The position numbers and the translations under genes are program-made. Below, piece after piece: positions 1 to 16,800 of a stretch of DNA of 64,000 nucleotides; position 1 is the stretch's first letter; the number at the start of each line of letters is the position of its first letter. The DNA comes from Microbacterium limosum (GTDB lineage: Bacteria > Actinomycetota > Actinomycetes > Actinomycetales > Microbacteriaceae). The stretch is taken from assembly GCF_036324365.1 (NCBI RefSeq), contig NZ_CP137080.1:1488001-1552000 (forward strand), written 5' to 3'. Below the pieces are notes generated by a model. That model was not told the DNA's origin, ran no database searches, and saw only the letters and a program-made list of their open reading frames with translations.

Positions 1-447
1 ACGTCGAGGCTGAAAGCTGCGGAACATGGCGATCTCCTTCGCCGTCGTCGCGTCGACGTCTCCGTGGTCATCGAGCAGGTCGACCGACCACCTCCTGCCA
101 TAGAGCGCCTTACCCACCGCTGTCGTCCCGCCACGGCGAAAGGCCTCGGCGGTCGGGGAGAGAAGGTCCGGCACCAGGTTCCCCGCCGCCGGCTCATGGA
201 GGACGAATCCATGGCACGCGGCACCCATGCCCGCGAGCGCGAGACCGAGGGTTGCCCCGCCTGACATCCCCACGATGACCGCGCCCGCCGCATACTCGGC
301 CAGCCACTCGATCTCGTCCTCCAACCGACCGGTCTTCGGGCGACGAAGCGCCCGGAGCTGTGGAATCAAGCGCTTCAGAGGATCCCAGACGGCAGGTGAG
401 GCCGCGACCCCGTGAACCGCGAGGATCGGGACGTCGTCAGCTGGCAT
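1..447 (-). CDS. alpha/beta hydrolase, 3' end beyond the window
   Basis: A frame with an ATG at 447 stays open to the window edge (149 codons visible). Near the N-terminus VHGVAASP looks like the HG oxyanion motif of alpha/beta hydrolases, and GMSGG around residue 62 is a GxSxG nucleophile elbow. The Asp and His of the triad would lie in the missing part. Its start codon sits inside the last codons of the allophanate hydrolase gene (11-nt overlap), so it is probably translated with the triazine/biuret operon. Its substrate cannot be told from sequence; it may act on a side chain or ester feeding the pathway. Family assignment is fairly sure, role is not. Confidence 0.75.
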   Translation of the reverse strand, partial: MPADDVPILAVHGVAASPAVWDPLKRLIPQLRALRRPKTGRLEDEIEWLAEYAAGAVIVGMSGGATLGLALAGMGAACHGFVLHEPAAGNLVPDLLSPTAEAFRRGGTTAVGKALYGRRWSVDLLDDHGDVDATTAKEIAMFRSFQPRR

Positions 448-2203
448 CGGCCGCCCTGTTGAGATCATCGGCCGCCGCGGCCATATACGAGCGCCACCCG
501 CCGTACGCGGTGATGTCACGCGCTCCCTCGAGCGCCGTCGGATCGCAGACGAATCCGTGGACGGCGGTGCCGTCGTCGAGCTCGAGCGTGCCGATCGCCA
601 ACGGTGCACTCACACCGCGGAGAAAGGACCCGACGGTAGCAGTCGGAAGCCGATAGACCTCGACCTCGATACGAGCGCCTTCTCGTAGATCGGTCACCAG
701 CCCGGGACGTCGCGGCTCGTCGCCGGGGAGCGCGTAGAGCCGGTACCGGGGTGCGGTCATCGTGCGCCGGCTCAGGAGCCCGCCGCGATCGGTGATTTGG
801 TGATGAAGTCCGAACCCCTCGAGATGGGCGCCGACGACGGCGACCTCCATCAGCGAGTCCTGGTCGACCGCATCCGCGAGCGCCGACGCCAGCCCTGCGA
901 GTTCCTGGTCGGCACCGGAAGGCCCATGAAGGGTGACACCGAAGGGGACGTGCGCCGCCGTACTCCCCGCCGGGACCGCGATGGCGCACATGTCGAGCAG
1001 GTTGGTAAAGGTCGTGTAGGTACCCAATTGCGCGTTGAGTTCGACGGGGTCAGCGCGCATCTGCTCGACCGTGTAGGTCTTCGTCACCGTGGGAGTGAGC
1101 AGAGCATCGACCGAACGGAGGATGTCATCCGCCTCCCGCCGCAACTCCCACACGCGGTGCATACTCGACCAGACCTGTGCGGCCGACATCGCACCGGCGC
1201 CCGCCAAGATCTGGCGCACGACCGGGTCGACGTCGTCTCGGTCCTCCTCGAGCGCGACCGAGACGGCGGTCGCGCGCTCAGCAAGCCACGCACCGCCATA
1301 CAGGTGACGACCTGCCTCGAGAAGCGGGGTGTAGTCGATCTCAACCAGTTCGGCTCCGGCTCGGACGAGGTCGGCACGGACCCGACTCCACGCGTCCTCC
1401 TCGCCACGCTCGCCCCATCCGGCGACAACCTCAGGCACGCCCAGGCGGACTCCGGCGAGCGAGACCGAAGCAACCCGGGCGGAAGGAACCGGGAGCGGGC
1501 GCGACCAGGGGTCCTGATCATCGAAGCCGGCGATCACCTGAGCCACGATGGCTGCGTCGGCAACCGAGTTCGCCATCACCGAAACGCAATCGAGCGACCG
1601 GCACGCCGGCACGACACCGCGAGTGCTGACAAGGCCCACACTCGGCTTGAGACCGACGACCCCGTTCAACGCCGCGGGAACGCGCCCGGACCCCGCGGTA
1701 TCGGTCGCCAGAGAAAACGCAACCAGGCCCGCCGCAACAGCTACCGCGGATCCTGATGACGACCCGCCGGAGATGAGGGAGCTATCGTGGGCCGAGGAGG
1801 GCGTCCCGTAAGGAGAACGGGTACCGTTCAGACCGGTAGCGAACTGGTCCAGGTTGGTCTTGCCGACGAGGATCGCGCCTGCCGCGATCAGGTCGCGAAC
1901 CACGGGTGCCGACTGCTGGGGGCTGTAGGCGAAAGACGGGCACGCCGCCGTCGTCGCCCACCCCTCGACGTCCATGTTGTCTTTGACCGCGAAGGGGATG
2001 CCCCAGAGCGGAAGACGATCGCGATCGGCAGGATCGAGTGCTTCAGCATCTCGGACGAGTCGATCGGAGACCGAGATCCAGACTCCGTCACGTCCTCGCG
2101 CATCGATCGCAGCCAGAGTGCGCTCCGCCACATCGCGAGGTGTGCAGGTTCCCCGCCGGTACGCGGAGTGGAGGCGGGCGATCTCCATGCGAGGAGAGAT
2201 CAC
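437..2203 (-). CDS. atzF: allophanate hydrolase (AtzF type)
   Basis: This cytoplasmic amidase-signature enzyme should hydrolyse allophanate to two ammonia and CO2, the last step of cyanuric acid and biuret breakdown. The predicted catalytic set is K74 (VKDN), cis-Ser S148 (GGSSSGS) and nucleophile S172 (TAGSGR); the 74- and 24-residue spacings match the Lys-Ser-Ser set known for AtzF. Residues from about 480 form the extra C-terminal domain (LYALPGD, then a GWRSY-like end) that separates allophanate hydrolases from plain amidases. At 588 aa it is the usual family length. GTG at 2203 overlaps the biuret hydrolase stop (GTGA), implying coupled translation. It is not the urea amidolyase fusion type, since no biotin carboxylase part is attached. 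Confidence 0.93.
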
Positions 2204-2904
2204 CGCGCGGATCCCTTACCGAACGCGTCATCCAGCGCCGACGACTCCGCGACCGCACCGAAAACACCCCCCTGCATGGTGATCATCTTCAGCGCCGCCT
2301 CGTAGTTTCCGTGATCGGTGGCGCCTGTGCAGTCACTGAGCAGAAGGCACTCGTAGCCGCGATCGTTCGCCTCCCGCATCGTCGTGTGCACGCAGACGTC
2401 GGTTGTGATCCCCGTCAGAATCAGATGAGTGATCCCCCGAGTGCGCAAGATCACGTCGAGATCGGTTCCGTAGAACGCCCCCTTGCCAGGCTTGTCGATG
2501 ACGATCTCGCCCACGAGAGGTGCCACTTCGGGCACAATCTGCCACCCGGGTTCCCCGCGTACGAGGATGCGTCCTCCCGGTCCTGACGACCCGATCTCGG
2601 CACCGATCTGCTGCGAGCGCCAGAGTTTGTTGGGCGGGCAGTCCGAGAGATCCGCCCGATGACCCTCGCGAGTATGGATCACCTGGAGGCCTGCCGCGCG
2701 AGCGGAACCGAGGATCCGCGCTGTGGGCGCGAGTCCGCGTCGGGTGAGTGTGAGGTCGTACCCCATGCGGTCGACGTAGCCACCGACCCCGCAGAAGTCC
2801 ACCTGCCAGTCGATACACAGGAGCGCGGTCGACTGGGCGGAGAACGTTCCGTCGAACGGCCACGCGTACGGTGTGGCCGCTACCGGCCCGAATCTGCTCG
2901 TCAT
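2200..2904 (-). CDS. biuH: biuret hydrolase, copy 1 (cysteine hydrolase family)
   Basis: Predicted to convert biuret to allophanate and ammonia. It is an isochorismatase-fold cysteine hydrolase of 234 aa with D32 (CIDWQ), K138 (IDKPGKG) and C171 (TTDVCV). The 106- and 33-residue spacings equal those of the characterised Rhizobium BiuH triad (D36, K142, C175, from memory of that enzyme). Other BiuH-like stretches are TREGHR, RGEPGW and [11 protein letters not shown]. It lies between the cyanuric acid hydrolase (upstream, ATGA overlap) and allophanate hydrolase (downstream, GTGA overlap), exactly where biuret would be handled. A second related copy sits on the other side of the cyanuric acid hydrolase gene. 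Confidence 0.92.
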
Positions 2905-3920
2905 CGCCTCGTCTCACCTCCGCCCGTGGGTTCCTGCCACACCACCGTCACCGGACCTCCTCCAGGTGGCCCTTGGTTCTCGGCGCCTCCGGAGACGTAG
3001 ATCGATGTGCGCCCGAACACCCCCGCTAGAAGGCCTCCTACGGCCGCGCGCGCGTGTCGTGTCGACGAGAGGTCGGTGTCGGTGAGCATCGTGTGCCGTA
3101 ACCCTCGGATCCGCCCGTCCGGACTCGCCTCGGCCTTCGCGAAGACCTGCACGATGGTGCCGCCGGCGGCTCGGATGCGATCGCGGAGCGCGACGATCTC
3201 CTCCACGTCGATCGCGTCGTGCATGACCACCGTCTCAGCGTTCAGCTGTCCGCCGGGGTCGAGTCGAGACCCGAACGCCAGCACGAGGCACCGGTCGAGC
3301 TCGATACCGGCGGAAGCCGAAGCGACCGCCGACCAGACAGAAGGATCGCCTGCGAGGCCTTGGTCCGCTTCGACTCCGCCGATCTCTCCGCACGCGAGCG
3401 CGACGCCCAGCGAGCTAGCCGCTCGGGATCGCGCCATCGATAGGTAGGGATCATCCGTCACGGCCCCGCCTCTCGCTGACACGATCTGCTCGGTCGTCAG
3501 CAAAGGGCATTTCACGAGCACCATGTGGGCGTTGCGTGGATCAAAGCCTCCGTTGCGGCACGCTTCGAGCGTCGCCGCAGCGACCGCGTCGACCTGCTCT
3601 CGGCGCCCGAGCCCTTCGACAGATAACCGAGGGGTCTGCGCGAACCCCGCCGCAAGTCGCCCGTTGCCTGATGTCGAACCCTCCGAAACCACGGTGACAT
3701 GCGGGCTGAGGACTCCCTCAGTGCCGCCCGACATGACGGTCAACGCCGGTTCCGAGAGCCCCTCGGTCCAGGCGCGAGTCGCGAGAGCCCGGCTGAAGTC
3801 GTTAACGCCGCCGTTCCCCTCCGTCTTTCCGATGACGGCAAGGACCCTTCGCCCGAACACCCTGTCGACCGGGGCGTCGTCGGGGGCAGCAACCGGCACG
3901 ACCGTCAGATCGACATACAT
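2901..3920 (-). CDS. atzD: cyanuric acid amidohydrolase (AtzD/TrzD family)
   Basis: Ring-opening amidohydrolase of the AtzD/TrzD/barbiturase fold, 339 aa from ATG 3920, close to the family's 355-370. Three internal repeats each carry a Lys and a Ser as in this family: K32 (GKTEGNGG) with S64 ([12 protein letters not shown]), K137 (VKCPLLT) with a Ser near 201-203 (ASASAG), and K262 (FAKAEAS) with S310 ([11 protein letters not shown]). Expected reaction: cyanuric acid to carboxybiuret, which decarboxylates to biuret. The flanking biuret and allophanate hydrolases favour cyanuric acid over barbiturate as substrate. A longer frame reaches 4070, but ATG 3920 overlaps the upstream stop (TGATG) and starts the conserved part, so it was chosen. 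Confidence 0.93.
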
Positions 3921-4645
3921 CAGCGCGTCCGGTCGTCGGCCGGGAGCGATTCCGCACCCAGCGCGGCGAGGACGGAGTCCGATGAAGCGACAGCCGCGAA
4001 CAAGCCGCCCTGCATCGTGAGGATCTCGATCGTCTGCAAGTGCCGGGCGCGATCGGTCGCGGCCGTGCAATCCGACAGCACGAGTACCTCGAACCCGCGA
4101 TCGTTGGCCTCCCTGATTGTGGTCGACACGCAGACATCGGTGGTCAACCCCGTAATCAGCAGATCGGTAATCCCCGCCATGCGCAGAATGTGCTCGAGGT
4201 CGGTGGCGTAGAACGCACCTTTGCCGGGCTTGTCGATGACCGTCTCACCCGCAAGCGGGGCCAACTCGGGGATGATCTCCCACCCAGCCTCGCCTCGAAT
4301 CAGCACGCGTCCCAGAGGCCCGACGGACCCGATCTCGACCCCCTGACTGGCGGAACGCCACCTCTTGGTGTCGGGCAGATCAGAGAGATCGGGGCGGTGC
4401 CCTTCTCGCGTGTGGATCACCGTCAGCCCGAGTTCGCGCGCCCGCCCAAGCACTCTTTGGGTGGGTTCTATCGCCGCACGGGTCAGGCTGATGTCATAGC
4501 CCAGCGAATCAATGAATCCACCGCTGCCGCAGAAGTCGACCTGCCAGTCGATGCAGAGCAGAGCCGTGCGCGTGAGATCGAGTTGACCGTGCCACGGCCA
4601 GGCATAGGGATCCGCCTGGATCGCCTGCGGTGTTGTCGTGGTCAC
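3920..4645 (-). CDS. biuret hydrolase paralogue, copy 2
   Basis: Second cysteine hydrolase of the BiuH type, 241 aa, clearly related to copy 1 along its whole length. The triad is D33, K139 and C172 with the same 106/33 spacing. It differs in loops around the active site (GSGGFIDS for [15 protein letters not shown] for LILTGITT) and in the C-terminal 15 residues, so it may prefer another amide such as carboxybiuret, a ureide or N-alkyl biuret; that is inference. GTG 4645 was chosen over GTG 4663 because AAGGGAG lies five bases upstream of it and the N-terminus then aligns with copy 1. First gene of its unit, 24 bases downstream of a palindromic site. Confidence 0.88.
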
Positions 4646-4668
4646 TATGACTCCCTTGCTCACCTCGA

Positions 4669-4678
4669 TCGTATACGA
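4669..4678. promoter_or_regulatory. putative GntR operator, perfect palindrome TCGTATACGA
   Basis: A perfect 10-bp palindrome lies in the 79-bp gap between the GntR gene and the biuret hydrolase unit. The same GTATACGA core occurs in front of the importer operon at 11327. FCD-type GntR regulators commonly bind short palindromes with a GT-(N)-AC core, so this is a reasonable operator for the neighbouring regulator. No binding data exist here. Confidence 0.55.
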
Positions 4679-4724
4679 CCTACCGGAGAGGGCCGGCGTC
4701 GGAGTGTTACCGCCGTGTTAAACC

Positions 4725-5366
4725 TCAGCGACGGATGAGCTCGTCGAAGAACGCAAGGTCGCCGAGGACGTGCTCGCGCATGAGATGAGCCGCGGCCTCC
4801 TCGCCGCCGAGAATCGACGCGCAGATGTCGCGATGCTCATCCCACGACCCGGCAGCGCGCGCAGCCAGCTCCGCTCCGAATATCCAACTGAGGCGGCTGC
4901 GCAGCGTCCTCAGCATCTCGACGAGTTCTCGATTTCCGGAAGCAATCGCCACCGTGTCGTGGAATCGCTCCACCAGCTCCGAATGGCGCTCGGGTTCGGT
5001 CACCGGGTCGAGGGTGCTGCCCTCTTCTGTAAGAGATCGAAGTTCGCGTGCCATCGCCCCTCCGTGGGCAGCCGCGGCAAGCCGCGCCGCCATCGCCTCG
5101 AGTTCGGCGCGGATCGCGATGAGCTCGCGGGTGCCCGATGACTCGGGCTGGGCGACTATTGCACCCTTGTATTTGCGCAACTCGAGAAAGCGCTGCTGCT
5201 CCAGCACCTGAAAGGCCTCGCGCACGGGTACTCGGGAGACGTCGAAATCGGAAGCAATCTCCTCCTCGCGAAGCCGGCTGCCGGGAACGTACGAGCCATC
5301 GATGATCCGTCCCCGGATCGCGGCGGCAATCACGTCGCGCAGGGGAAGCCCAGCACGAGAAGCCAT
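4725..5366 (-). CDS. GntR family regulator, FadR/FCD subfamily
   Basis: A 213-aa transcription factor. Residues 10-75 form a winged helix (LRDVIAAAIRGRI, then SRVPVREAFQVLE typical of GntR). Residues 90-210 look like the all-helical FCD ligand domain, with the RFHDTVAIASGN signature and later His residues that usually bind a metal and an acid ligand. It sits between the importer/deaminase operon and the ring-cleavage unit, both with a GTATACGA palindrome upstream, so it probably controls both, with a pathway intermediate such as cyanuric acid or biuret as inducer (inference). ATG 5366 is used; GAGGAG is only 1-2 bases away, so GTG 5375 or TTG 5387 remain possible starts. Confidence 0.85.
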   Translation of the reverse strand: MASRAGLPLRDVIAAAIRGRIIDGSYVPGSRLREEEIASDFDVSRVPVREAFQVLEQQRFLELRKYKGAIVAQPESSGTRELIAIRAELEAMAARLAAAAHGGAMARELRSLTEEGSTLDPVTEPERHSELVERFHDTVAIASGNRELVEMLRTLRSRLSWIFGAELAARAAGSWDEHRDICASILGGEEAAAHLMREHVLGDLAFFDELIRR

Positions 5367-5415
5367 GCTCCTCACTCTAGGGACCAACCCCGCCAGATGC
5401 CGAGTTCCGGTCGCC

Positions 5416-6231
5416 TCAGCTGGATGCTCCCCCGCTTGCGGACGATTCCGCCTCCGTCGCGTCCAGTCGCGCGTTCAGCCCGTCGACGATGCGATGCAAG
5501 CGATCATCCCGCAGCAGATCCGGCTCACGGGGTCGCTCGAACCCCACTTCGACGACATCGGCGACCTGCGCCGGTCTGGCGCTCAGCACGACGACTCGGT
5601 CGGCGAGGAACACCGCCTCCTCGACGCTGTGCGTGACGAGGAGCGTCGTGATGCGCAACCGCGTCCACACCGCCTGCAGCTCCACATTGAGTCGTCGTCG
5701 CGTCACCGCGTCGAGCGCTCCGAACGGCTCGTCCAGAAGCAGAACGGAGGGATCCAGAGCCAGAGCCCGCGCGATCGAGACTCGTTGACGCATCCCGCCG
5801 GAAAGCTGGGACGGGCGCGCATCGGCGAAGCCCCGGAGTCCGACCAAGTCGATCAGATCATCTACCTGGTGCCGATCGACGTCACGGCCCGCGACTCGGA
5901 AAGGGAGCTCAATGTTCTTGCGCACCGTCAACCACGGCAGCAGTGCGTGGTCCTGGAACGCGACACCCAGGCGATGATCGCGCGCGAGGACTCGCGGATG
6001 CTCACCGGCGATCGTCACGGACCCCGAAGTCGGCTCGTCAAGTCCGGCAATCATCCGCAAGATCGTCGACTTCCCCGAGCCCGACGGGCCGATGAGCGCG
6101 ACGAACTCCCCCTCGGCGATCTCCAGGTCTACCCGCTTGATCGCCTGGACCGACGCTCCGCGCTTCAGCCGGAACGACTTCGAGACCGCCTCGACCCGCA
6201 CGCTGCGCCCGAGAGGCGCGCCGGCGTTCAT
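5416..6231 (-). CDS. ABC importer ATPase (nitrate/sulfonate/taurine type)
   Basis: ATP-binding subunit, 271 aa. Walker A GPSGSGKS at 48-55, signature LSGGMRQR at 143-150, Walker B plus D-loop LLLDEPFGALD at 164-174 and the switch His in VTHSVEEA. It belongs to the SsuB/TauB/NrtD/ThiZ group that energises uptake of small organic nitrogen or sulfur compounds, consistent with the NMT1-like binding protein and two TauC-like permeases upstream. Its ATG overlaps the stop of the amidohydrolase gene (ATGA). Likely cargo is the ring compound degraded by the cluster (inference). Confidence 0.93.
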   Translation of the reverse strand: MNAGAPLGRSVRVEAVSKSFRLKRGASVQAIKRVDLEIAEGEFVALIGPSGSGKSTILRMIAGLDEPTSGSVTIAGEHPRVLARDHRLGVAFQDHALLPWLTVRKNIELPFRVAGRDVDRHQVDDLIDLVGLRGFADARPSQLSGGMRQRVSIARALALDPSVLLLDEPFGALDAVTRRRLNVELQAVWTRLRITTLLVTHSVEEAVFLADRVVVLSARPAQVADVVEVGFERPREPDLLRDDRLHRIVDGLNARLDATEAESSASGGASS

Positions 6232-7640
6232 CGGCCCACCTGGAGTCGTGCGCGGTCCGCGATGCCGCGGGAACGCTCCGAGGCCTCCCGCACCAGGGCC
6301 GCGAGGTCGCCGTCAGCGCCAAGGAAGGTAGGAACGCCGCGTTCGACGACGACCCGACCGTCGACTATCACGGTACGTACCGCGACCGTGGGTTGCAAGA
6401 ATACGAGCGCCGCGTACAAGTCGGCCGCGGGCGTCATCCGCGGCTCCTCCAGATCAAGGATGACGAGGTCGGCGCGCTTGCCGACCTCGATCGATCCGAT
6501 CAGGTCATCCATACCCAGAACCCGCGCTCCCTCGATCGTTGCCATTTCCACGACCCGCTGCGGACTGATCGCCCCCGGGTCACGACTCACCGCGCGGTGC
6601 AGGAGCGCCAGGAGCTTCATCGAACCGAAGAGATCGACCGCATCCGAGCAGTTCGCATCGTCCGTGCCGATCCCCATCGGGATGCCCGCCCGGAGCATTC
6701 GCGGAACCGGCGCGACCCCGGCGCCTAGAAAGGCGTTGCTCGCCGGCTGCGTCGATACCCGGGTGCCCGATTCTGCGAGCAACCGGATCTCACGATCGGA
6801 GACGTCGATGCAGTGCGCCGCGAGCAACCTCTCATCGAGCGCACCGACGCTGTCGAGATACTCGACCGCGCCCATCATGTGCTGCACGCGCTCCCGCTCG
6901 TCCTCGGCGACGTGCATCGTCCACATGGTTCCGCGCTCGCGCGCGATCTGTCGGCTCCGCTGCAGGGCGCGTCGGGAGACGATTCCGGGGATCGCCGGCG
7001 ACGGCCACACTCGGATCCGACCCTCACCGGCCCTGTCGTACCTCCGCACGATCTCATCGAGGTCGGCCAAGACGCGATCGGTGTCGACGAAGATGTCGCT
7101 GTCCGGAACGTCCGGGGCCTTCGCACGGACCGCGCCGAGATAATCCTCGAAACCCGGCGCAGGCTGGTCGGCGAACATGCGAGCGTATACAGCGCGGATG
7201 CCGCTCTCGACGAGGGCCTCGACAGTGCTCGCCGCGGTGGAGACCATGGAACGCGTTCCAGCATCCTCGTTGTCAACGATCGTCGTCACACCGTTCATCA
7301 ACGCCTCCGTCGCGAACAGCAAGGTCGCGCACCGGATGTCGTCGTTCTCGTACACGCTCAGGCCCGGGTACAGCACGTTGTAGAGCCACTCGTAGAGTGG
7401 CCGATCGTGGGAGTAGCCGCCGCGAAGCAGGATCTGCGGCACATGGGTGTGCGCGTTCACGAGTCCCGGGATCACCGCGCGCCCCGCCGCCTCGATCACC
7501 CGCGAGCCGACGGGAATCTCGACGTTCGATCCCACTGCGACGATCTCGCCGTCCTCGACCAACACGGTCGCCCGCTCGAGGTCGCGGCGCTCATCGTCCA
7601 TCGTCAGCACTCGCGCGTCAACGATCGCCACCGCGCTCAT
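6228..7640 (-). CDS. amidohydrolase, TrzN/AtzB/guanine deaminase-like
   Basis: Metal-dependent TIM-barrel hydrolase of 470 aa. Ligands are visible: H64 and H66 (NAHTH), H243 (TMHVAE), H276 (AAHCID) and D327 (GTDD). The family includes guanine, cytosine, MTA/SAH deaminases and the triazine enzymes TrzN and AtzB, and length alone does not separate them. Because the next unit encodes a cyanuric acid pathway, removal of an amino, alkylamino or chloro group from an s-triazine is a good hypothesis; purine or pterin deamination is the alternative. It lies inside the importer operon with ATGA overlaps on both sides, so it is made together with the transporter. Confidence 0.88.
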   Translation of the reverse strand: MSAVAIVDARVLTMDDERRDLERATVLVEDGEIVAVGSNVEIPVGSRVIEAAGRAVIPGLVNAHTHVPQILLRGGYSHDRPLYEWLYNVLYPGLSVYENDDIRCATLLFATEALMNGVTTIVDNEDAGTRSMVSTAASTVEALVESGIRAVYARMFADQPAPGFEDYLGAVRAKAPDVPDSDIFVDTDRVLADLDEIVRRYDRAGEGRIRVWPSPAIPGIVSRRALQRSRQIARERGTMWTMHVAEDERERVQHMMGAVEYLDSVGALDERLLAAHCIDVSDREIRLLAESGTRVSTQPASNAFLGAGVAPVPRMLRAGIPMGIGTDDANCSDAVDLFGSMKLLALLHRAVSRDPGAISPQRVVEMATIEGARVLGMDDLIGSIEVGKRADLVILDLEEPRMTPAADLYAALVFLQPTVAVRTVIVDGRVVVERGVPTFLGADGDLAALVREASERSRGIADRARLQVGR

Positions 7641-8671
7641 GCCCGCGCCTCCTCGCCGGCTGCCACCGCATCGAGCTCCGCGAGCAGCGCGCTACGACGG
7701 TCATCGTCGCAGAAGGCCGACTCGATCGATGTTCGCGCGATGGCGAGAAGGTCATCGCGCTGCCAGCCGAACGCCCGCGCGGTCGCGGCGTACTCCTGGT
7801 CGAGAATCGATCCCAGGGCAGTGCCGTCGTCGGTGTTGAGGCTGATCCGCACCCCGGCTTGCCGCAACTCCTCGACTGGATGCGCGGCCCGGCTCTCGGT
7901 AAATCCAAGAGCGACGTTCGACCCCGGGCAGATGCCGAGCGGGATGCCTCGGTCGGCGATCTCGGCGACCAGCGCCGGTTCCTCGATCGCGCGGAAGCCG
8001 TGATCGATACGATCGGCCATCAGGAGGTCGATCGCATCGCGGACACCCTCGGGACCACTGGACTCCCCTGCGTGAACGGTCCGGTAAATGCCACGGGATG
8101 CCGCGCGGCGGAAAGTGTCGGCGAACCTTGCGGACACACGCCCGGCAACCGCTTCGTCGCCGTCGATCGACAGGGCGACCACCCGCGGATGGTCCCGCTC
8201 CAGCATCCAATCCAGCAGTTCATCGGCCTCAGCGGCGGATTGCTGGCGCAACAAGCTCAGGCACAGGCCAGTCGACGGGAGTCCGTCCTGTTCCGCCTCT
8301 CGCCATCCGGCGTCGAGGGCGTCGACGAGTCCCGCGATATTTCCGCGCCAGGCCTCCCAGTGGGTCGGGTTGATGATCACGTCGGTGTAGCGGATGCCGC
8401 TGGCCGCCTGCCTCTGGGCGAACCGATAGGCGACGGATGCCGCGTCGTCGGCGGTCCTGACCAGCGACGCACCCCAGTCGAGGAACTGGAGAAATTCGGT
8501 GAGTCCGTCGAAATCGAAGAGCTGCTCGGCCGGTCGGCGAAGGGGCACCCCGTACTTGCCGGCCAGTCGCATCAGCTCCTCCCGGTCGATGCATCCGTCC
8601 AGGTGCACGTGGACCTCGGCTTTGGGTACCGTCCGTACCCAAGCCTCGTCGATGTTGTCGTTCACGATCAT
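7637..8671 (-). CDS. adenosine deaminase-like aminohydrolase
   Basis: A 344-aa protein of the adenosine/AMP deaminase family. Zinc and catalytic residues are present: H21 and H23 (EVHVHLDG), H200 with E203 (VHAGES), H224 (DHG) and D281/D282 (NTDD). The position after NTDD is Gly rather than the usual Pro, and the first 60 residues differ from housekeeping Add, so the substrate may not be adenosine. Members of this family deaminate adenine, guanine, 6-aminodeoxyfutalosine and other aminated heterocycles. Sitting in an importer operon next to a TrzN-like amidohydrolase, it could strip an amino group from an aminotriazine or a purine. ATG overlaps the permease stop (ATGA). Confidence 0.87.
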   Translation of the reverse strand: MIVNDNIDEAWVRTVPKAEVHVHLDGCIDREELMRLAGKYGVPLRRPAEQLFDFDGLTEFLQFLDWGASLVRTADDAASVAYRFAQRQAASGIRYTDVIINPTHWEAWRGNIAGLVDALDAGWREAEQDGLPSTGLCLSLLRQQSAAEADELLDWMLERDHPRVVALSIDGDEAVAGRVSARFADTFRRAASRGIYRTVHAGESSGPEGVRDAIDLLMADRIDHGFRAIEEPALVAEIADRGIPLGICPGSNVALGFTESRAAHPVEELRQAGVRISLNTDDGTALGSILDQEYAATARAFGWQRDDLLAIARTSIESAFCDDDRRSALLAELDAVAAGEEARA

Positions 8672-9459
8672 CCCTTCCCATTACTGCCGTCGTGATAAGC
8701 CGCTTCGAGCCACCGCGTCACGGCCGAAGCCAGCCCGAAGAATGCGAGAGAGAGCACTGTGGCGACGATGGCGGCACCCCAGGATCGCGACATGTCGTAG
8801 GAGACCCGCGACACCACGAAGAGCTGCCCGAGACCCGACGACCCGACGACGAACTCGGCGAGCAGCACCCCGACCACCGACCCGACCGCAGAGAGCCGGA
8901 ACGCCTCCAAGAGCGAAGGGACCGCGGCCGGGAGATCGAGCCGCCGGAACCTCGTCCATCTCGAGGCTCCCAGCACCGTCAGCAGGTCCTGCTTGCTGCG
9001 CGAGGCGGAGGCCAGACCGCGCGACACCAGGACGAACGCTGGAAAATACGCGACCAGTGTGGCGACGACCAGCACGGTCGGCGTTCCGTAACCGACAATC
9101 CGCGCGAAGATCGGAACCATCGCCACCATGGGAACAGCGCGGACGATCAGCACCGCGGGCCGCACCGCCGCACGCACGACTCCTGAGAGATGGGCCGCGA
9201 TGGCGAGTCCGATGCCAAGCAGTTGTCCCAGGACGAGACCCGTCGCGGCCAGCCCGGCGCTCACCGTGAGGTCGGGAAGATACGCATCCGGATGTCCGAC
9301 CAGGTCGGCGAGAACACTCGCCGGGGAGGGCATGACGACCCGGTTGACCTGCCCGATCACGACCCACAGCGCCCACGCGGCGACGATCGCCACGACCGCC
9401 ACGTTGTCCCAGGCGAACCGGGCGACCGCTCGCCCGATAGCCGTCACGCGCGCGTTCAC
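8668..9459 (-). CDS. ABC importer permease, second copy
   Basis: Inner-membrane permease, 263 aa from GTG 9459, which overlaps the upstream permease stop (GTGA). The frame is open much further upstream, but that part is antisense-like and lies over the first permease gene. About six hydrophobic segments are visible (for example VAVVAIVAAWALWVVIG), with the coupling loop LGASRWTRFRRLDLPAAVPSLLEAFR that contacts the ATPase, and GVLLAEFVVGSSGLG typical of the SsuC/TauC group. Partner of the other permease in a hetero-dimeric channel. Confidence 0.92.
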   Translation of the reverse strand: MNARVTAIGRAVARFAWDNVAVVAIVAAWALWVVIGQVNRVVMPSPASVLADLVGHPDAYLPDLTVSAGLAATGLVLGQLLGIGLAIAAHLSGVVRAAVRPAVLIVRAVPMVAMVPIFARIVGYGTPTVLVVATLVAYFPAFVLVSRGLASASRSKQDLLTVLGASRWTRFRRLDLPAAVPSLLEAFRLSAVGSVVGVLLAEFVVGSSGLGQLFVVSRVSYDMSRSWGAAIVATVLSLAFFGLASAVTRWLEAAYHDGSNGKG

Positions 9460-10238
9460 AGCCCGAACCTCGCCGCGCTCCGCCGGGCGAGTGACGCAGC
9501 GCCGCCGTAGACGATGCTGGCGGGCACTGCGGTCAGGACCCCCGCCGCCCACAGCAACGGGATGTCGTAGTTCTGCATCGAGTTGATCAGCAGGGGCCCG
9601 ATGCCCCGGGCGGAGCCGAACCACTCGCCGATCACCGCCCCCAACAGGGCCGCGGGAATCGCCAGCTGAAGAGCCGCGAACACCGCTGGGAGCGCCGCGG
9701 GCGCTTCCAGCTGCGCGAGCACCGCGATCCGCCGGGCACCCAGTACGGCAAACAGGTCCTCCTGCGCCGCCCGTCGGGTCCACAGCGCGGAGCAGATGAC
9801 GACAAAGGCAGCGAAGTAGGCCGCTGTCGCCGCCAGCGCCGCGGGCACGACGGCGCGGGGCAGAAGGACCATGAGCAGCGGGCCGAGGGCGACGACCGGA
9901 ACCGCCTCGACGAGAACCGCGAAGCGCTCCGCCGGGCGACGCGTGACCGGCATCAGGCGGGAGAGCACCGCGGTCGCCACCGCGGCGCTGATTCCGATCA
10001 CGCCGCCGAGAAGCCCCTCCTGGACGGTCACCCCGAGCGCCCCCCACAACCTCGGCGCACGCGCGGGATCGACGATCACCCACAACACGTCGGTGAGGGG
10101 TGGCCAGGAGGTGGAGAGGACCCCGGTCCGGCCGATGATCTCCCACGCCGAGGCGAAGAGGAGCACGCCGATCACGATCTCGATGGTCTTTCGGGACCGC
10201 GTCGCCGTGCCGACCGGACCGAGGTCCTGCACAGTCAT
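9456..10238 (-). CDS. ABC importer permease, first copy
   Basis: Inner-membrane permease of 260 aa, TauC/SsuC type, about six membrane segments. The coupling loop is LGARRIAVLAQLEAPAALPAVFAAL, followed by GAVIGEWFGSARGIG, which fits the conserved EWxGxxxGLG end of this subfamily. ATG 10238 overlaps the stop of the binding-protein gene (ATGA). Two different permease genes instead of one homodimeric permease are typical of pyrimidine-precursor (ThiX/RutG-like) and riboflavin-type importers, which suits a heterocyclic cargo. Confidence 0.92.
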   Translation of the reverse strand: MTVQDLGPVGTATRSRKTIEIVIGVLLFASAWEIIGRTGVLSTSWPPLTDVLWVIVDPARAPRLWGALGVTVQEGLLGGVIGISAAVATAVLSRLMPVTRRPAERFAVLVEAVPVVALGPLLMVLLPRAVVPAALAATAAYFAAFVVICSALWTRRAAQEDLFAVLGARRIAVLAQLEAPAALPAVFAALQLAIPAALLGAVIGEWFGSARGIGPLLINSMQNYDIPLLWAAGVLTAVPASIVYGGAASLARRSAARFGL

Positions 10239-11281
10239 CGGAGCAGGGTTGCCGATCCGCCGAAGACCTCGTCGAGCAGCGATTCGTCAACGTAAGTCGC
10301 GACATCAGGAAGATCGGTCATGCCCGCAGCCCGCAGGATCGGGTACATCTTCTGCTCGATGTCCTCCGCCGAGATCCGCAACAGACCCGACTCCGCGGTG
10401 AGATCGCTCGTCGTCATCGGGATCTGATTGATGTTCTCCTTGATCTGCTGGCTCAGCGAGAGTCCCAGGTCGGCTCCCCACACGTCGACCGCGAGCTGCG
10501 CGGCCACTTCGGGGTCGTCGGCGTTCTTCTCCCAGCCCTTCACGGTAGCCCGCAACCAGGCGACAACCAGGTCGCGGTTCTCTTCCAGGTAGGTGCGGTC
10601 GACGAAGATCATGTTGGAGTAGACATCCAGACCCAGGTCCTGCCACGACACGCTGGTGTAGTCCACACCCTGCTCTTCGAGGATGAGTCCCTGGTTGGTG
10701 GCGAAGGCGGTGATCCCGTCGACGTCTCCGTTCACGAGCGCTTGCACGTCGTAGCCGATCGGCACGAACTCGTAATCCGGCTCTAGCCCGTTGATGGTGA
10801 AGATGGCATCCAGTTCACGCTGCTGCCCCTGGGGGCTTCCGATGCGCTTGCCGATCATGTCCTCGACCGAGTTGATCGGGTTCTCGGAGAGCGACAGGAT
10901 TGCCAATGGGCTCTCCTGGTAGACAGCACCGACGAGCACCACGTCGGCTCCCTCCGACACGGCGTCGATGAACGAGGTGAAGTTCGTATCGAGTCCGATC
11001 GGTGCGTCACCGGATGCGACGATCTGAACGGTGTTGGAGACGTTGGGGCCGCCCGGCAGCCATTCGGCGACGATGCCCTCCTCCGCGTAGTAGCCCTCGC
11101 TCTCGGCGATCCACATTCCGGCGAACTCCACGTTGGTGACCCAGTTCAGCTGTGTCGCCACGACCGGAAGGGACTCTTCCTCGGTCGATGGCTCCGCCGC
11201 ACAACCGGCGATCGTCAGCATCCCCACCATGGTCGCACCCGCCCAGGCGAGACGCCTATCGCGGTGGCTTGAAGTCTTCAT
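10235..11281 (-). CDS. ABC substrate-binding lipoprotein, NMT1/THI5-like
   Basis: Extracytoplasmic solute receptor of 348 aa. From ATG 11281 there is a basic start, a hydrophobic run and a lipobox LTIAGC (Cys near residue 26), so it should be lipid-anchored. The mature part has the NMT1/SsuA-like fold signs: TQLNWVTNVEFAGMW near the N-terminus, EGYYAEEGI, then GGPNVSNTVQIVASGDAPIG. This class (ThiY-like) binds pyrimidines, ureides, nitrate or sulfonates. A longer frame to 11461 was rejected because GAGAGG lies just upstream of ATG 11281 and the signal peptide starts there. First gene of a six-gene, translationally coupled operon. Confidence 0.92.
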   Translation of the reverse strand: MKTSSHRDRRLAWAGATMVGMLTIAGCAAEPSTEEESLPVVATQLNWVTNVEFAGMWIAESEGYYAEEGIVAEWLPGGPNVSNTVQIVASGDAPIGLDTNFTSFIDAVSEGADVVLVGAVYQESPLAILSLSENPINSVEDMIGKRIGSPQGQQRELDAIFTINGLEPDYEFVPIGYDVQALVNGDVDGITAFATNQGLILEEQGVDYTSVSWQDLGLDVYSNMIFVDRTYLEENRDLVVAWLRATVKGWEKNADDPEVAAQLAVDVWGADLGLSLSQQIKENINQIPMTTSDLTAESGLLRISAEDIEQKMYPILRAAGMTDLPDVATYVDESLLDEVFGGSATLLR

Positions 11282-11326
11282 AAGCCTCTCAATTCTCGCG
11301 GCAATCATGACGCGATCTCTCGCGTT

Positions 11327-11336
11327 TTGTATACGA
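11327..11336. promoter_or_regulatory. putative GntR operator TTGTATACGA
   Basis: Near-palindrome sharing the eight bases GTATACGA with the perfect palindrome at 4669-4678. It overlaps the -10 hexamer proposed for the importer operon, so a bound repressor would block transcription. Assignment to the GntR protein at 4725-5366 is inferred from this pairing. Confidence 0.55.
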
Positions 11337-11357
11337 TCCATGCTCGCTGGCTGTCGT
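11328..11357 (-). promoter_or_regulatory. probable promoter of the importer/deaminase operon
   Basis: On the minus strand a good -10 box TATACA (11333-11328) is preceded by ACGACA (11357-11352) at 18-bp spacing, four of six bases matching the -35 consensus. Transcription would start near 11321, leaving about 40 nt of leader with a GAGAGG ribosome site before ATG 11281. Confidence 0.5.
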
Positions 11358-11677
11358 TGCGCGGGCATGGCCTGAACATTTCCAGCGTGTAAAAGATGCT
11401 GCGCCGCCCGCAGGGGCGGGTCACCGGCGCCGTTCCCGGCACTGAAGCGTTCGGCGAGCACCCCGAAGTCAGGCGGTCGCTGCGATCCTCAGGATCACAA
11501 CGCCGACGATCGACGACCCCCGCGATCCGGGAATTCGCGCGGCGATACCTGGGCGTGCTGCCGTGGCGCCTCGCCCACCGGGCGCGGTTCCTCCTGCTGG
11601 TGGCGCCCGTGAGGCTCGTCGTCGTGGGCTCCGGGGCGGTCTGGACCCGTGGTCGGCGTGATCGGTGCCTTCACGTC
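11358..11677. other. intergenic DNA with gene debris
   Basis: No intact gene is seen. At about 11476-11512, on the minus strand, a short stretch reads VGVVILRIAA and then stops; it closely matches the last residues of the small membrane protein encoded at 12277-12594, so it is probably the tail of a decayed second copy. The rest is without recognisable features. Confidence 0.4.
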
Positions 11678-12101
11678 ATGATCGTCGCGTTCATCCGGCA
11701 TTGTCAGGCCGACTGGAACGCCGAGGGACTCATCCAGGGATCGAGCGACATCCGGCTCAACAACACCGGACACCGATAGGTGGCGGATACCCCGATGACC
11801 CTGCGCTCACTGCCGTGGATGCGGTCGTGAACTTCCCGCTCCTGCGCGCCCGCGAGACGGCCCGCATCATCGCGGAAGGGCTGAACACCCCGTTCGGCAC
11901 CGCGTATCCGAAGCTCGCCGAACGCGACTACGGCGAGCTGGAGGGCACCTCGGCCGCCGCCGCGATCGCGCGCTGGCCCGACCGGGAGTATCCGGGCGCA
12001 GCGTCGCTCGACTCCGTCGCTGTGCACGGGGTCGTGGCCCTGACCCGCATCGCCACCGACTTCCCGGCAAGGCGGTGCTCGTGGTCTGCCACGGCACGCG
12101 A
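11678..12101 (+). pseudogene. histidine phosphatase (phosphoglycerate mutase-like) remnant
   Basis: The first frame starts MIVAFIRHCQADWN, the RHG motif region of histidine phosphatases with Gly replaced by Cys, and stops at 11779. The next frame continues with FPLLRARETARIIAEGL and LAERDYGELEGT, both typical of the family, and a third frame carries VLVVCHGTR, the second catalytic His region. At least two frameshifts and one stop separate them. The 3' end runs directly into a fragment of an unrelated gene. Not expected to make a working enzyme. Confidence 0.75.
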
Positions 12102-12280
12102 GGTGGTGGTGCTCGAGGGGCACGATCGTGCCGCCGCAGTCGCTCGTCGCGGGCATCCCGGGCAAGGTGCGCCGCGAGCTCACTGACGAGGAGGTCGCGG
12201 GGTTGCTCGGCAACTCCGCGCGCTATGTGCCGCGGTCGAAGGTGTACAAGGCGGCGGAGGGTCAGGACGCCGCGGGTTAG
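12102..12280 (+). pseudogene. gamma-carbonic anhydrase family C-terminal fragment
   Basis: About 55 residues in frame from 12119 read GTIVPPQSLVAGIPGKVRREL and end YVPRSKVYKAAEG before TAG at 12280. This resembles the last turn and C-terminal helix of left-handed beta-helix gamma-carbonic anhydrase/acetyltransferase-like proteins. The preceding VVVLEG is in another frame, with the shift in a GGGG run at 12117-12120. The N-terminal two thirds are absent, so this is a fragment fused to the phosphatase debris. Confidence 0.65.
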
Positions 12281-12604: not shown

Positions 12605-13567
12605 CTAGGTGTAGCGACCCGTGAGGTTGTGAAGGCGGCAGGTGGGGGTGTGGCCTCCGAGGGCGGTGTGGGGTCGTCGGTGATTGTATTCCTCGAGCCA
12701 GTCGGCGTAGGTGGCTGATCTTGCCGCGTTCGAGAGGTAGGTCGATGCGTAGGCCCACTCGGCGGCGAGGGTGCGGTTGAATCTCTCCACTTTCCCGTTC
12801 GTCTGTGGCCGGTAGGGGCGGGTGCGGATGTGCCGGACTCCCTCGCCGAGGGCCGCGGCGAAGTCGTGGGAGCGGTAGCAGGAGCCGTTGTCGGTCATGA
12901 CGGCTTTGACGGTGAGGCCGGCTTCGGCGAAGTGAGCGCGGGCGCGGATCCAGAACCCGGCGGCGGTGTCCTTCTGTTCGTCGTCGAGCTCTTCGGAGTA
13001 GGCCAGGCGGGTGCAGTCATCGACCGCGTGGTGCAGGAACGAGTAGCCGGTCCCGGCGCGGCGGTTGCGGCGTCCGGCGTGACGGCCGAGCATCCGGTGG
13101 CCGCCACCGTCAGGGATCCGACCCAGTTTCTTGATATCGACATGCACGATATCGCCCGGCGCGGCCGCCTCGTACCGGATCGGTTTCGGCTTCCGAACGG
13201 GCAGCCCGGTGTTGCGGTCCAGATGCGACAGCCGCGGCATCCGATAGCGGGCAAGCACCCGACCCACGGTCGCCGGGTTCAACCCCAGATGCCAGGCGAT
13301 CCGCCGAGCACCCCACCGCCGGTTGAAGCGGATCGCGACGATCCGCCGCTCCGTGCGACGGTCAAGCTGGGTCGGCGATCGATACGGACGGGAACTGCGA
13401 TCAGTCATCGGCTGACCCGCCCGGTATCGATCGGCCCACTTCTTCGCCGTCGCCTGCGAACACTGGAACCGTTCCCCAGCCCGGGCGAGCGACCAGCCGC
13501 CGACAACGACCGCACGAGCAAGCCGAAGCCGCCCCCTCGGCGTCAAATGAGCATTAGCGTGAACCAC
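12605..13567 (-). CDS. IS481 family transposase
   Basis: A 320-aa DDE transposase. The N-terminal part has a helix-turn-helix (ARAVVVGGWSLARAGERF, SQATAKKWADRYR) and a second HTH near residue 90 (NPATVGRVLARYRMPRLS). The catalytic core has D near DIVHVDIKKLG, D in VMTDNGSCYRS and E in NGKVERFNRTLAAEW. The TAG stop codon is formed with the CTAG inside the target duplication at 12604-12609, so the gene is completed only by insertion into a CTAG site. Full family length and no frameshift: likely active. Confidence 0.95.
   Translation of the reverse strand: MVHANAHLTPRGRLRLARAVVVGGWSLARAGERFQCSQATAKKWADRYRAGQPMTDRSSRPYRSPTQLDRRTERRIVAIRFNRRWGARRIAWHLGLNPATVGRVLARYRMPRLSHLDRNTGLPVRKPKPIRYEAAAPGDIVHVDIKKLGRIPDGGGHRMLGRHAGRRNRRAGTGYSFLHHAVDDCTRLAYSEELDDEQKDTAAGFWIRARAHFAEAGLTVKAVMTDNGSCYRSHDFAAALGEGVRHIRTRPYRPQTNGKVERFNRTLAAEWAYASTYLSNAARSATYADWLEEYNHRRPHTALGGHTPTCRLHNLTGRYT
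12610..12631. repeat. IS481 left inverted repeat
   Basis: 22 bp beginning TGTAGCGACCCG and ending GTTGTG; matches the right end at 13642-13663 with two mismatches (positions 13 and 16). Confidence 0.9.
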
Positions 13568-13868: not shown

Positions 13869-16800
13869 ATGAAAGGTGGCGTGATCCCGTTCCGGGGCAC
13901 AGGCTCGGATGCCCTGCGCTATCTGGAGTCCGACCGCGCGCGGGCGGACGAGTATTACCTGGAGGCGGGGACCGCCCTGGCCGAGTTCACGGCGGTCGAC
14001 GCCGAGGGCCGAGTGATCGGCGAGCTCGGGCTGACCGCCGAGGAGTACCGCCAGTGGGTTGGCTGGATCAACCCGCTCACCGGGGAGTCGATGGGCCGAC
14101 CCCGGCTGCGGGGCGAGGGTGGCCGGGGGTCGCCCCGGTTCATGGAGATGGTCGTGAACGTCCCGAAGTCCCTGTCGGTCGCCGCCGGCCTGCACCCGGA
14201 GGTGTCCGAGGCCCTGGACGCCGCCCAGCGGGACGCGGTTGCGGAGATCCGGTCCTGGCTCGGCCAGCACTCGGTCACCCGCGTCGGCGCGCGCGGGAAG
14301 CAGGAGGTCGTGCCGATCGAGCAGCTCGAAACCGTGGCCGTGTCGCACAAGACCTCCCGTGCGGGCGACCCGCACCGGCATATCCACTTCCAGATCGGGA
14401 CGCGCGTGTGGGCGGCCGGTCGCTGGCGCGGGCTCTACACCGCGGCGCTGTTCCGGCAGCAGGGCGCGATCCGCGCCCTCGGCACGGCGGTCATCGCCGC
14501 GCACCCGCAGCTCGCCGCGGTGCTCGACGCGCACGGTCTCACCCTTGACCCGGTGACCGGGGAGGTCGCGGAGCTGGTGCCGTGGAAAGCGGTCATGTCC
14601 AAGCGCGGGCAGCAGGTGGCGCGCAACCTCGCCAAGTTCGAGGCCGAGTGGGAGGCCGCGCATCCCGGCCAGGAGACGGGGCCGGTGGTGCGCGCCAGGT
14701 TGCACGCGAAGGCGTGGGATCATGAGCGGCCGAGCAAGAAGCCCAGCGTGCTCGGCTCCGAGGCCGGCTGGTTGCGCGAGTTGCAGGAGGCTGGCTACAC
14801 CCCGGACCTGCCGCGCGCCACCGTGCAACCCCTGCGCACGCTGGACGAGCTGGCCGTGCAACAGGTCGCCTCCCGTGCGCTCGACCGCTGCGCGGCTGCT
14901 GCATCCGCATGGACCGTGCATGACGTGCAGGAGCAGGTGGCGCACATCGTCACCGAGGCCGGTGTGCGCGCCACCCGCGAGGAGCTGCGCGAGTTCATCA
15001 CCATCACGACCCGGCTCGCGGCGGACGACTGCCTCTCGATCCTGCCGCCGGATGCGCCACGGCTGGAGCATGTTGCGCACCTCACGACGCTGCACGTAGT
15101 GGCCGTCGAGACGGAGCTGCGCGACCGACTGGCTGCACGCGCCACCCGGCCGGTGCACGGCGCAACCCCGCGCGTGCAGGAGCCGGGGCTGGATGCGGAC
15201 CAGGCGCGCGCCGCCGCCGCGCTCGCCTCCACCCGGCCGCTCGTCGTGGTCGAGGGCGCGGCGGGCGCGGGCAAGACGACCATGCTCGGTGCTGCGATCC
15301 GCGCCGCCGGACAGGAGGGTCGTTCGGTGCGGGTGGTGACCCCGACGAAGAAGGCCGCCGACGTCGCCGCCGCCGAGCTGGGCGTGCCGACCGACTCGGT
15401 AGCGGCACTCGTCTACGACCACGGGTTCCGGTGGAACGCCGATGGTGTCTGGACCCGGCTGGCCGTGGGCGACACGGACCCGGTGACGGGCGCGACCTAC
15501 CGCGGCCCGGCGAAGGAGAACCGACTGGCCGCCGCCGAGCGGGTTGTGGTGGACGAGGCGGGGATGCTCGACCAGGACACCGCCCTCGCCCTGCTGACCG
15601 TCGCGGACGAGGCCGGCGCGACGCTCGCACTCGTCGGGGACCGGGCGCAGCTCCCCGCCGTGGGGCGCGGCGGGGTGCTCGACATCGCGGCCGCGCTCGT
15701 CCCCCGCGTCTACTCGCTGACGAGCCTGCACCGCTTCGCGGACCCCGACTACGCGCAGCTCACCCTCGCCCTGCGGACCGGCCGCGACCCGGCCGAGTTG
15801 TTCGACCGGCTCCACGCGCTCGGACTCGTGCGGCTCCACGAGGACACCGAGGCGCTGCGCGCCGCGGTCGCCGCCGAGCGGATCGACGGAGCCGCGATCA
15901 CCGCGGCGACCAACGACGAGGCGCGCGAACTGAACACTCTGATCCGAGAGGACCGGGTGCGCGCGGGCGCGGTCGACGACGCCCGCACCATCGACGGCGC
16001 GGACGGCCTGAGCATCGGCGCCGGCGACCTCATCCAGACCCGCCGCAACGACTCGGAGATGGGCGTGGCGAACCGGCAGACCTGGATCGTCCAGCACGTC
16101 AGCGGCGACGGCAGCCTGTGGGTGCGGGACGCCGCGAGCCAGCGGAAGCAGCAGCGCACCGTGCATCTGCCCGCCGAGTACGTCGCCGAGCACGCGCACC
16201 TGGCCTACGCCGCGACCGCCTACGGCGTCCAGGGCATGACTGCCCCCGCGTCGCACACCGTCCTGTCGGACGCGCTCGACGCGGCCGGCGTCTACGTCGG
16301 CCTCACCCGCGGGCAGGAGGAGAACAGGCTGCACGTCGTCGCCGCGGACCTCGGGGACGCGCGCGAGCAGTTCCAGGCCGCGCTCGAGCGGGACCGCGCC
16401 GACCGCGGACTGCGCGAGGCCACCGAGCGGGCGCAGGCCGCCGTCGCGGGCATCGTCGCGGACGGGCCGGTGCGCGTCGTGAACGCCGAGCGCACCCGAC
16501 TGCGGCAGAGCATCGAGCAGGCCGAGCGCCAGGCGGCACGGTGGGCGGAGGCGGCCGAGGCGATGGAGCGCCAGTCGGCCGCGCACCGCGTCGAGGCCGA
16601 GGCGCTGCTGGCCGAGGTCGAGGCCGCCGCCCAGCAGGTCGAGGCGGCACGGGCCGAGGCCGTCCCGCCGCTGGTCGAGCAGGCCGGCACGGACGCCGCC
16701 GCGGTCCTCGCGGTCAGGGAGCGCCACGAGACGGCGATCGCCGCCAGGAGCCGTGCCGGGGCGCTGAGGCGTCGGAGCGCCGACCGGGCGCTGACCGAGG

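Follow-up and report, generated by a model that had tools for sequence, protein, structure and literature searches.

What compound does an eleven-gene operon on the minus strand of the Microbacterium limosum genome take up and break down? The operon lies in a 64,000-nucleotide stretch (positions 1488001-1552000 of a 2.79 Mb genome in a single contig), referred to as the window, whose coordinates are used below. We consider it probable that this is a horizontally acquired operon through which the cell obtains nitrogen from an amino-s-triazine, with melamine and/or ammeline the likeliest. Its individual functions are of known kinds. What appears to be new, judged from sequence, is the occurrence of a TriA-like amidohydrolase, an ADA-type deaminase and a complete ring-degradation route at one locus, together with evidence that the residues of AtzA are derived. 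No description of an operon combining TriA-like and ADA-type genes with cyanuric acid hydrolase (CAH), BiuH and AtzF was found in the open-licence literature.

The operon consists of 11 collinear, intact open reading frames (ORFs) from position 11281 down to 437. Neighboring genes overlap by 1-4 bases at eight of the ten junctions (2200-2203, 2901-2904, 3920, 6228-6231, 7637-7640, 8668-8671, 9456-9459 and 10235-10238); at the remaining two, 61 and 28 bases separate the genes. Gene classes were agreed by Pfam, NCBIfam and solved-structure searches. This bears out the original prediction of eleven collinear, mostly overlapping genes that comprise an importer (lipoprotein, two permeases and ATPase), two aminohydrolases and a regulator. 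The span of 1..11357 assigned to the island needed correction at both ends: position 11357 is not in the frame of the lipoprotein, so its start is most likely the ATG at 11281, which gives a lipobox (LTIAGC), and the island reaches past the left edge of the window. A promoter and terminator scan gave signals at chance level. In the direction of transcription, the genes are:

10235..11281, minus strand: NMT1/ThiY-type substrate-binding lipoprotein (ATG start placed by the lipobox; longest ORF to 11461)
9456..10238, minus strand: ATP-binding cassette (ABC) permease A, BPD_transp_1 (Pfam)
8668..9459, minus strand: ABC permease B, BPD_transp_1 (probable GTG start, with a 4-base overlap with permease A; Pfam on 8668-9420)
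7637..8671, minus strand: ADA-family deaminase (A_deaminase) with an IDHG.R motif, proposed ammelide/ammeline deaminase
6228..7640, minus strand: AtzA/TriA-type amidohydrolase (Amidohydro_1), proposed melamine/ammeline deaminase (TriA residues L84 L92 D125 I217 D328 C331)
5416..6231, minus strand: ABC ATPase, nitrate/taurine type
4725..5387, minus strand: GntR/FCD regulator
3920..4663, minus strand: BiuH-type cysteine hydrolase A, a divergent paralogue (isochorismatase family)
2901..3920, minus strand: CAH, Amido_AtzD_TrzD, with the AtzD signature R T R G G
2200..2904, minus strand: biuret hydrolase BiuH, cysteine hydrolase B (isochorismatase family)
437..2203, minus strand: AtzF-type allophanate hydrolase with C-terminal domain

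In the proposed pathway, the NMT1-type ABC importer would take up an amino-s-triazine, and the TriA-like amidohydrolase, from its relatedness and active-site residues, would strip amino groups, producing ammeline and ammelide. The ADA-type deaminase, from its operon position and linkage, may remove the last amino group to yield cyanuric acid. CAH would then open the ring to carboxybiuret/biuret and BiuH would convert biuret to allophanate (both assigned at family level, with residues checked), from which AtzF, assigned at family level, would release ammonia and CO2. The GntR protein would regulate the operon.

Could the ring opener instead be a barbiturase, and the island an oxidative pyrimidine pathway? 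Family homology favors this, and in order-level relatives (loci L088-L095) all eight PF09663 homologues carry the barbiturase signature N H K V S; because of these eight, a PF09663 protein in the host's order does not by itself imply cyanuric acid use. In the part of PMC3758960 drawn on here, AtzD and barbiturase are discriminated by residues 195, 321, 325, 345 and 346, and the signatures compared were R195 T321 R325 G345 G346 for AtzD and N195 H321 K325 V345 S/A346 for barbiturase. The window protein has the AtzD state at all five positions (R T R G G), a signature found in 116 of 120 listed CAH rows (window counted), and all three Ser/Lys dyads (six residues) are kept. In the solved-structure search, five CAH sequences scored 212-231 bits, as against 184 bits for barbiturase. 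The protein is a short form of 339 aa (337-342 aa in the six nearest listed homologues); its score of 344 bits is below the AtzD NCBIfam equivalog cut-off of 360, and the wider TIGR02714 is passed (269 vs 153). To our knowledge, barbiturate breakdown has no role for BiuH or allophanate hydrolase, which also speaks against a pyrimidine pathway. On the specificity signature, a barbiturase identity was rejected, and we regard an oxidative pyrimidine island as very improbable. Clustering with barbiturases had been named beforehand as a result that would overturn the CAH assignment; by signature and bit scores, the protein falls with the CAHs. PF09663 proteins occur in 10 of the 148 relatives' genomes searched, own genome counted. 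Of the nine others, eight are the order-level homologues above; the ninth, from a genus mate (L097), is divergent and shows S T K G A, a signature of neither CAH nor barbiturase type.

The later steps are assigned to two cysteine hydrolases and an allophanate hydrolase. Both cysteine hydrolases exceed the NCBIfam BiuH equivalog cut-off of 370 (402 bits for hydrolase A and 406 for hydrolase B), are 61% identical to each other and contain D36/K142/C175 and Q215. Diagnostic positions for BiuH and TrtA were taken from the portion of PMC7948467 that treats them. At these, hydrolase B agrees with Rhizobium BiuH at 11 of 12 positions (A instead of S at 147) and hydrolase A at nine of 12 (F at 47, A at 147, L at 218). 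The same portion describes TrtA and BiuH pairs that share operons, which would suit hydrolase A as a triuret hydrolase and an island that also takes triuret; hydrolase A has two of the six TrtA states (F35 N41 A134 E160 Y187 I205), namely F35 and A134, the latter also present in hydrolase B. However, positions 53, 173 and 200 of hydrolase A retain the BiuH residues, and position 218 is L. Its identity is 56.7% with a Rhizobium BiuH and 45.5% with the TrtA-type protein encoded in that BiuH's cluster. On its residues a TrtA identity was rejected, and use of triuret by the island is improbable; hydrolase A appears to be a second biuret-type ureide hydrolase, to which we assign no substrate preference. 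The allophanate hydrolase scores 688 bits against a TIGR02713 cut-off of 511, and its AH_C domain 155 bits. The predicted route from cyanuric acid through biuret and allophanate to ammonia thus holds at family and residue level. The catalytic residues said to be visible could be seen for CAH (the dyads) and BiuH, with AtzF assigned at family level, and the one BiuH that had been named is present, as one of two BiuH-type genes. Elsewhere, a Klebsiella plasmid from water (L115, 6067-15690) has a cluster of GntR, TrtA-type, BiuH-type, BMP importer and AtzF genes, with TriA elsewhere on the plasmid. A BiuH-type gene with the same 65.7% identity is on Enterobacter, Citrobacter and other plasmids from water, drains and patients.

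The closest solved relative of the amidohydrolase is AtzA (396 bits), followed by a match at 181 bits, and TrzN reaches at most 116 bits; the TrzN/AtzB-like label of the original prediction is therefore replaced by AtzA/TriA-type. A plasmid tblastn search ranked AtzA of pADP-1 and the Klebsiella SB610/SB611 TriA-type proteins highest; identity is 45.8% to the SB610 TriA-type protein and 44.5% to AtzA. The metal-binding H/H/H/H/D set is complete. Nine positions separate TriA from AtzA in the part of PMC4356373 used here, and the amidohydrolase reads L84 L92 D125 I217 G219 Q253 M255 D328 C331 at these, with the TriA state at six and the AtzA state at none. The F84, N328 and S331 of AtzA (atrazine chlorohydrolase) are absent from the window protein, which has L84, D328 and C331.

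Among the 120 homologues listed of 334 matches (own row counted), D328 occurs in 119, C331 in 112, L84 in 114 and the D328/C331 pair in 112; neither F84 nor the N328 and S331 pair was found in any of these 120. In a quick tree of 66 rows (56 homologue rows; P0005, P0041 and P0060-P0120 left out), AtzA/TriA nest within the homologue family, where a long branch places them next to two homologues (SH-aLRT 94, no bootstrap), one of them labelled as a cyanobacterial metagenome-assembled genome, and the window amidohydrolase falls in a separate clade. Since AtzA/TriA are nested inside a family with TriA states, the TriA-type residues, rather than those of AtzA, would most simply be ancestral. Noor et al. 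(2012) considered it unclear, in the portion of PMC3387218 at hand, which of AtzA and TriA stands closer to the ancestor, and the 120 listed homologues provide a broad outgroup for this question. Three relatives that are 38-42% identical to AtzA (Halomarina, L129 and L128) have N/L, N/L and G/S at 328/331, respectively, and all three adjoin molybdenum-hydroxylase genes.

The best matches of the ADA-type protein are two bacterial proteins (149.5 and 146 bits), with mammalian ADA scoring lower at 132 bits. We take these two bacterial proteins to be adenine deaminases. The motifs HxH, HAGE, DHG.R and TDD are all present; DHG.R, which presumably marks a base-acting ADA subgroup, is common to 116 of 119 homologues. 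HxHxDG is shared with three of the 119, and the other 116 have HxHxEG. The protein is part of a large metagenome subgroup at about 60% identity, and its gene is a candidate for an ammelide deaminase outside AtzC/TrzC.

Do these two deaminase genes travel with CAH elsewhere? Exact source-contig sizes of at least 5 kb were compared among the listed top-120 homologues (67 TriA-like, 78 CAH and 41 ADA-type rows; rows P0062 and P0133, which state no contig, were dropped), with a null of 1000 shifts of the sizes by up to 500. TriA-like and CAH rows share five metagenome contig sizes, far more than chance would give (8872, with two TriA-like rows, 9361, 16882, 17395 and 17706); for these six TriA-like rows the shifted mean is 0.17 and the maximum three, and none of the 1000 shifts reaches six. 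ADA-type and CAH rows share 9361, 18207 and 219450 (shifted mean 0.10; 0/1000 reach three), of which 18207 is the weakest because its contig counts differ (2 vs 3). The size 9361 is present in all three lists and is the only one shared by TriA-like and ADA-type rows, a level not above chance on its own (85/1000 shifts). All seven CAH rows with shared contig sizes carry the AtzD signature.

A TriA-like gene was found in one of 148 relatives' genomes (E 1e-60 or better), and among 396 genomes of the phylum TriA-like (E 1e-90) and ADA-type (E 1e-80) genes were found in one each, the own genome in every case. Two sets of genomes sampled from other groups (301 and 247 genomes) yielded one and two genomes with a family member, respectively (E 1e-110), and the three neighborhoods contained no CAH, BiuH-type or AtzF match. 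A genome contig scan gave 558 TriA-like loci, of which the best 80 reach an identity of 41% at most. A tblastn search of these 80 with the window's AtzF, BiuH, CAH, ADA-type, permease and substrate-binding protein (SBP) sequences gave partner matches at two loci (L043 and L077), both 28% AtzF-homologous amidases. A viral contig search gave no match.

The importer is of NMT1 type, and similar importers accompany nucleobase-like gene sets elsewhere. A plasmid of Rhizobium sp. ACO-34A (L099, 1840-10972) has an NMT1 importer (ATPase 52%, SBP 30%), an ADA-type gene (52%), a cysteine hydrolase (48%) and a CDA-type deaminase, with no CAH or TriA-like match in that stretch. The ACO-34A cysteine hydrolase has active-site changes, Y for K145 and K for Q215. 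A Polaromonas plasmid has an SBP (38%) with a nucleoside deaminase, and a Microvirga lotononidis plasmid (L118, 9118-13825) has an SBP, an amidohydrolase (30%), an ATPase (60%) and both permeases in a row, in a stretch for which the database record lists no features. These sets suggest that the operon is a nucleobase-type module for uptake and deamination to which the cyanuric acid route has been joined.

It could then be argued that the importer and two deaminases remain a separate purine- or pyrimidine-like base module that merely shares the operon, with the island degrading only cyanuric acid and biuret. ADA-type relatives adjoin a nucleoside hydrolase and ribokinase, or a CDA-type deaminase, and in an Acidimicrobiia-class genome (L129, 3410-16355) an ATPase (58%), SBP (36%), TriA-like gene (39%) and ADA-family gene (31%) lie within 13 kb, with molybdenum-hydroxylase and phosphorylase genes as neighbors. 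At 328/331, however, the TriA-like protein of this genome has N/L rather than D/C, and this set may be a purine-type forerunner of the window module. The importer protein AtzT of pADP-1 binds guanine best, but it also binds ammeline well (KD 0.36 uM; melamine >400 uM), according to the binding data seen in PMC6834077. Against a separate module, overlaps join both deaminases, the ATPase and a permease in one unit close upstream of the ring-opening genes, and TriA-like/CAH and ADA-type/CAH genes share contig sizes elsewhere. On balance, we think a separate base module unlikely, although it is the most serious of the alternatives, and favor an amino-s-triazine as the starting substrate.

Several points weigh against that preference. 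The Acidimicrobiia-class module adjoins molybdenum-hydroxylase flavin subunits and a phosphorylase in a genome in which no CAH was found; given such a set beside purine-type genes, the pathway could begin with an aminated heterocycle of another kind. Positions 219, 253 and 255 of the amidohydrolase match neither TriA nor AtzA. A D/C member that is 45% identical (G1052, L130) is in a genome without detected CAH and has no triazine gene alongside; since the D328/C331 pair marks a large family that includes this member, it does not establish a triazine substrate. The pair is the mark of a deaminase group and not by itself proof of melamine. The contig-size test links TriA-like and ADA-type genes to CAH indirectly, with equal size standing in for a shared contig. 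PF09663 was found in none of five genomes, of unstated completeness, with more distant TriA-like members, where controls were also blank; the same search gave the 10 of 148 among relatives.

We tentatively propose, as a wider claim for which the odds are somewhat less than even, that AtzA/TriA are one twig of a natural family of amino-s-triazine deaminases that was partnered with CAH and an ADA-type ammelide/ammeline deaminase before man-made triazines. TriA-type residues would be ancestral and F84/N328/S331 of AtzA derived, and the window operon, a nucleobase-type module with the cyanuric acid route, would be an intact example. If so, ammelide/ammeline deamination would be a new activity for the ADA-type family. 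Cyanuric acid is reported at 1.78 ug/L in Paramecium secretions in the part of PMC12342508 consulted; together with the family's spread across metagenomes, this makes a pre-industrial role thinkable. The operon offers a testable natural setting for the AtzA/TriA family, as well as a set of genes for breaking down melamine in a single piece.

How did the island arrive? Its G+C content is 0.65-0.685, compared with 0.67-0.75 across the rest of the window, and on the left it runs out of the window as far as an IS481-type transposase and a gene resembling gamma-carbonic anhydrase. The features at its borders within the window are:

1..519, minus strand: alpha/beta hydrolase that runs beyond the left edge, operon membership uncertain
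11665..12260, plus strand: junction debris, a partial histidine-phosphatase frame and a 159-base carbonic-anhydrase-like remnant
12605..13567, minus strand: IS481-family transposase at the right border

The carbonic-anhydrase-like gene left of the window is the fuller copy, and the 159-base remnant is a direct repeat of its 3' end (87%). The island was likely acquired by horizontal transfer. The left and right transposases are only 47% identical in protein and so represent different elements; a composite transposon, which needs two copies of one insertion sequence, was rejected on these grounds. A plasmid origin was likewise rejected, as no near copy of the operon was found by megablast in 72,556 plasmid records, four of which match 2-3% of the operon. 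The histidine-phosphatase reading frame is split over frames at 11396-12260. A large MobF relaxase/helicase gene at 13869-17288 marks a mobilisable element beside the island; part of this gene is about 72% identical in DNA to plasmid genes of Microbacterium and Rhodococcus.

The pairing of an importer with the cyanuric acid route, initially taken as undescribed, has precedents on pADP-1 of Pseudomonas sp. ADP (atzRSTUVW) and a Rhizobium leguminosarum plasmid. On pADP-1, atzRSTUVW/atzDGEHF likewise set an importer beside CAH and allophanate hydrolase under one regulator, but the importer is of BMP type, the regulator is a LysR protein, AtzEG/AtzH take the place of BiuH, and atzA lies about 40 kb away on the plasmid. 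The cluster of R. leguminosarum 4B shares GntR, an ABC importer, BiuH, AtzD and a second cysteine hydrolase with the window, but has a BMP-type importer, a TrtA-type second hydrolase and no TriA-like or ADA-type match in 17 kb. In Rhizobium tropici CIAT 899, homologues of CAH, BiuH and AtzF fit into about 6 kb, yet 21 kb gave no TriA-like or ADA-type match. The Klebsiella plasmids pKqs_SB610_3 and pKp_SB611_5 have a TriA-type enzyme, to which pKqs_SB610_3 adds GntR, a pair of cysteine hydrolases and AtzF; on pKqs_SB610_3, however, the genes are in separate regions split by transposases and the ring opener is short (126 aa). The deaminases are of CDA type, with no ADA-type match in the stretches compared. 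With AtzA of pADP-1 and the Klebsiella TriA-type enzymes, the window amidohydrolase shares the metal ligands and much of the pocket, and with TriA the D328/C331 pair; it falls in a separate clade. Rhodococcus sp. Mel reportedly takes melamine to ammonia via BiuH with genes in at least three separate regions, whereas the window holds its proposed pathway in a single operon.

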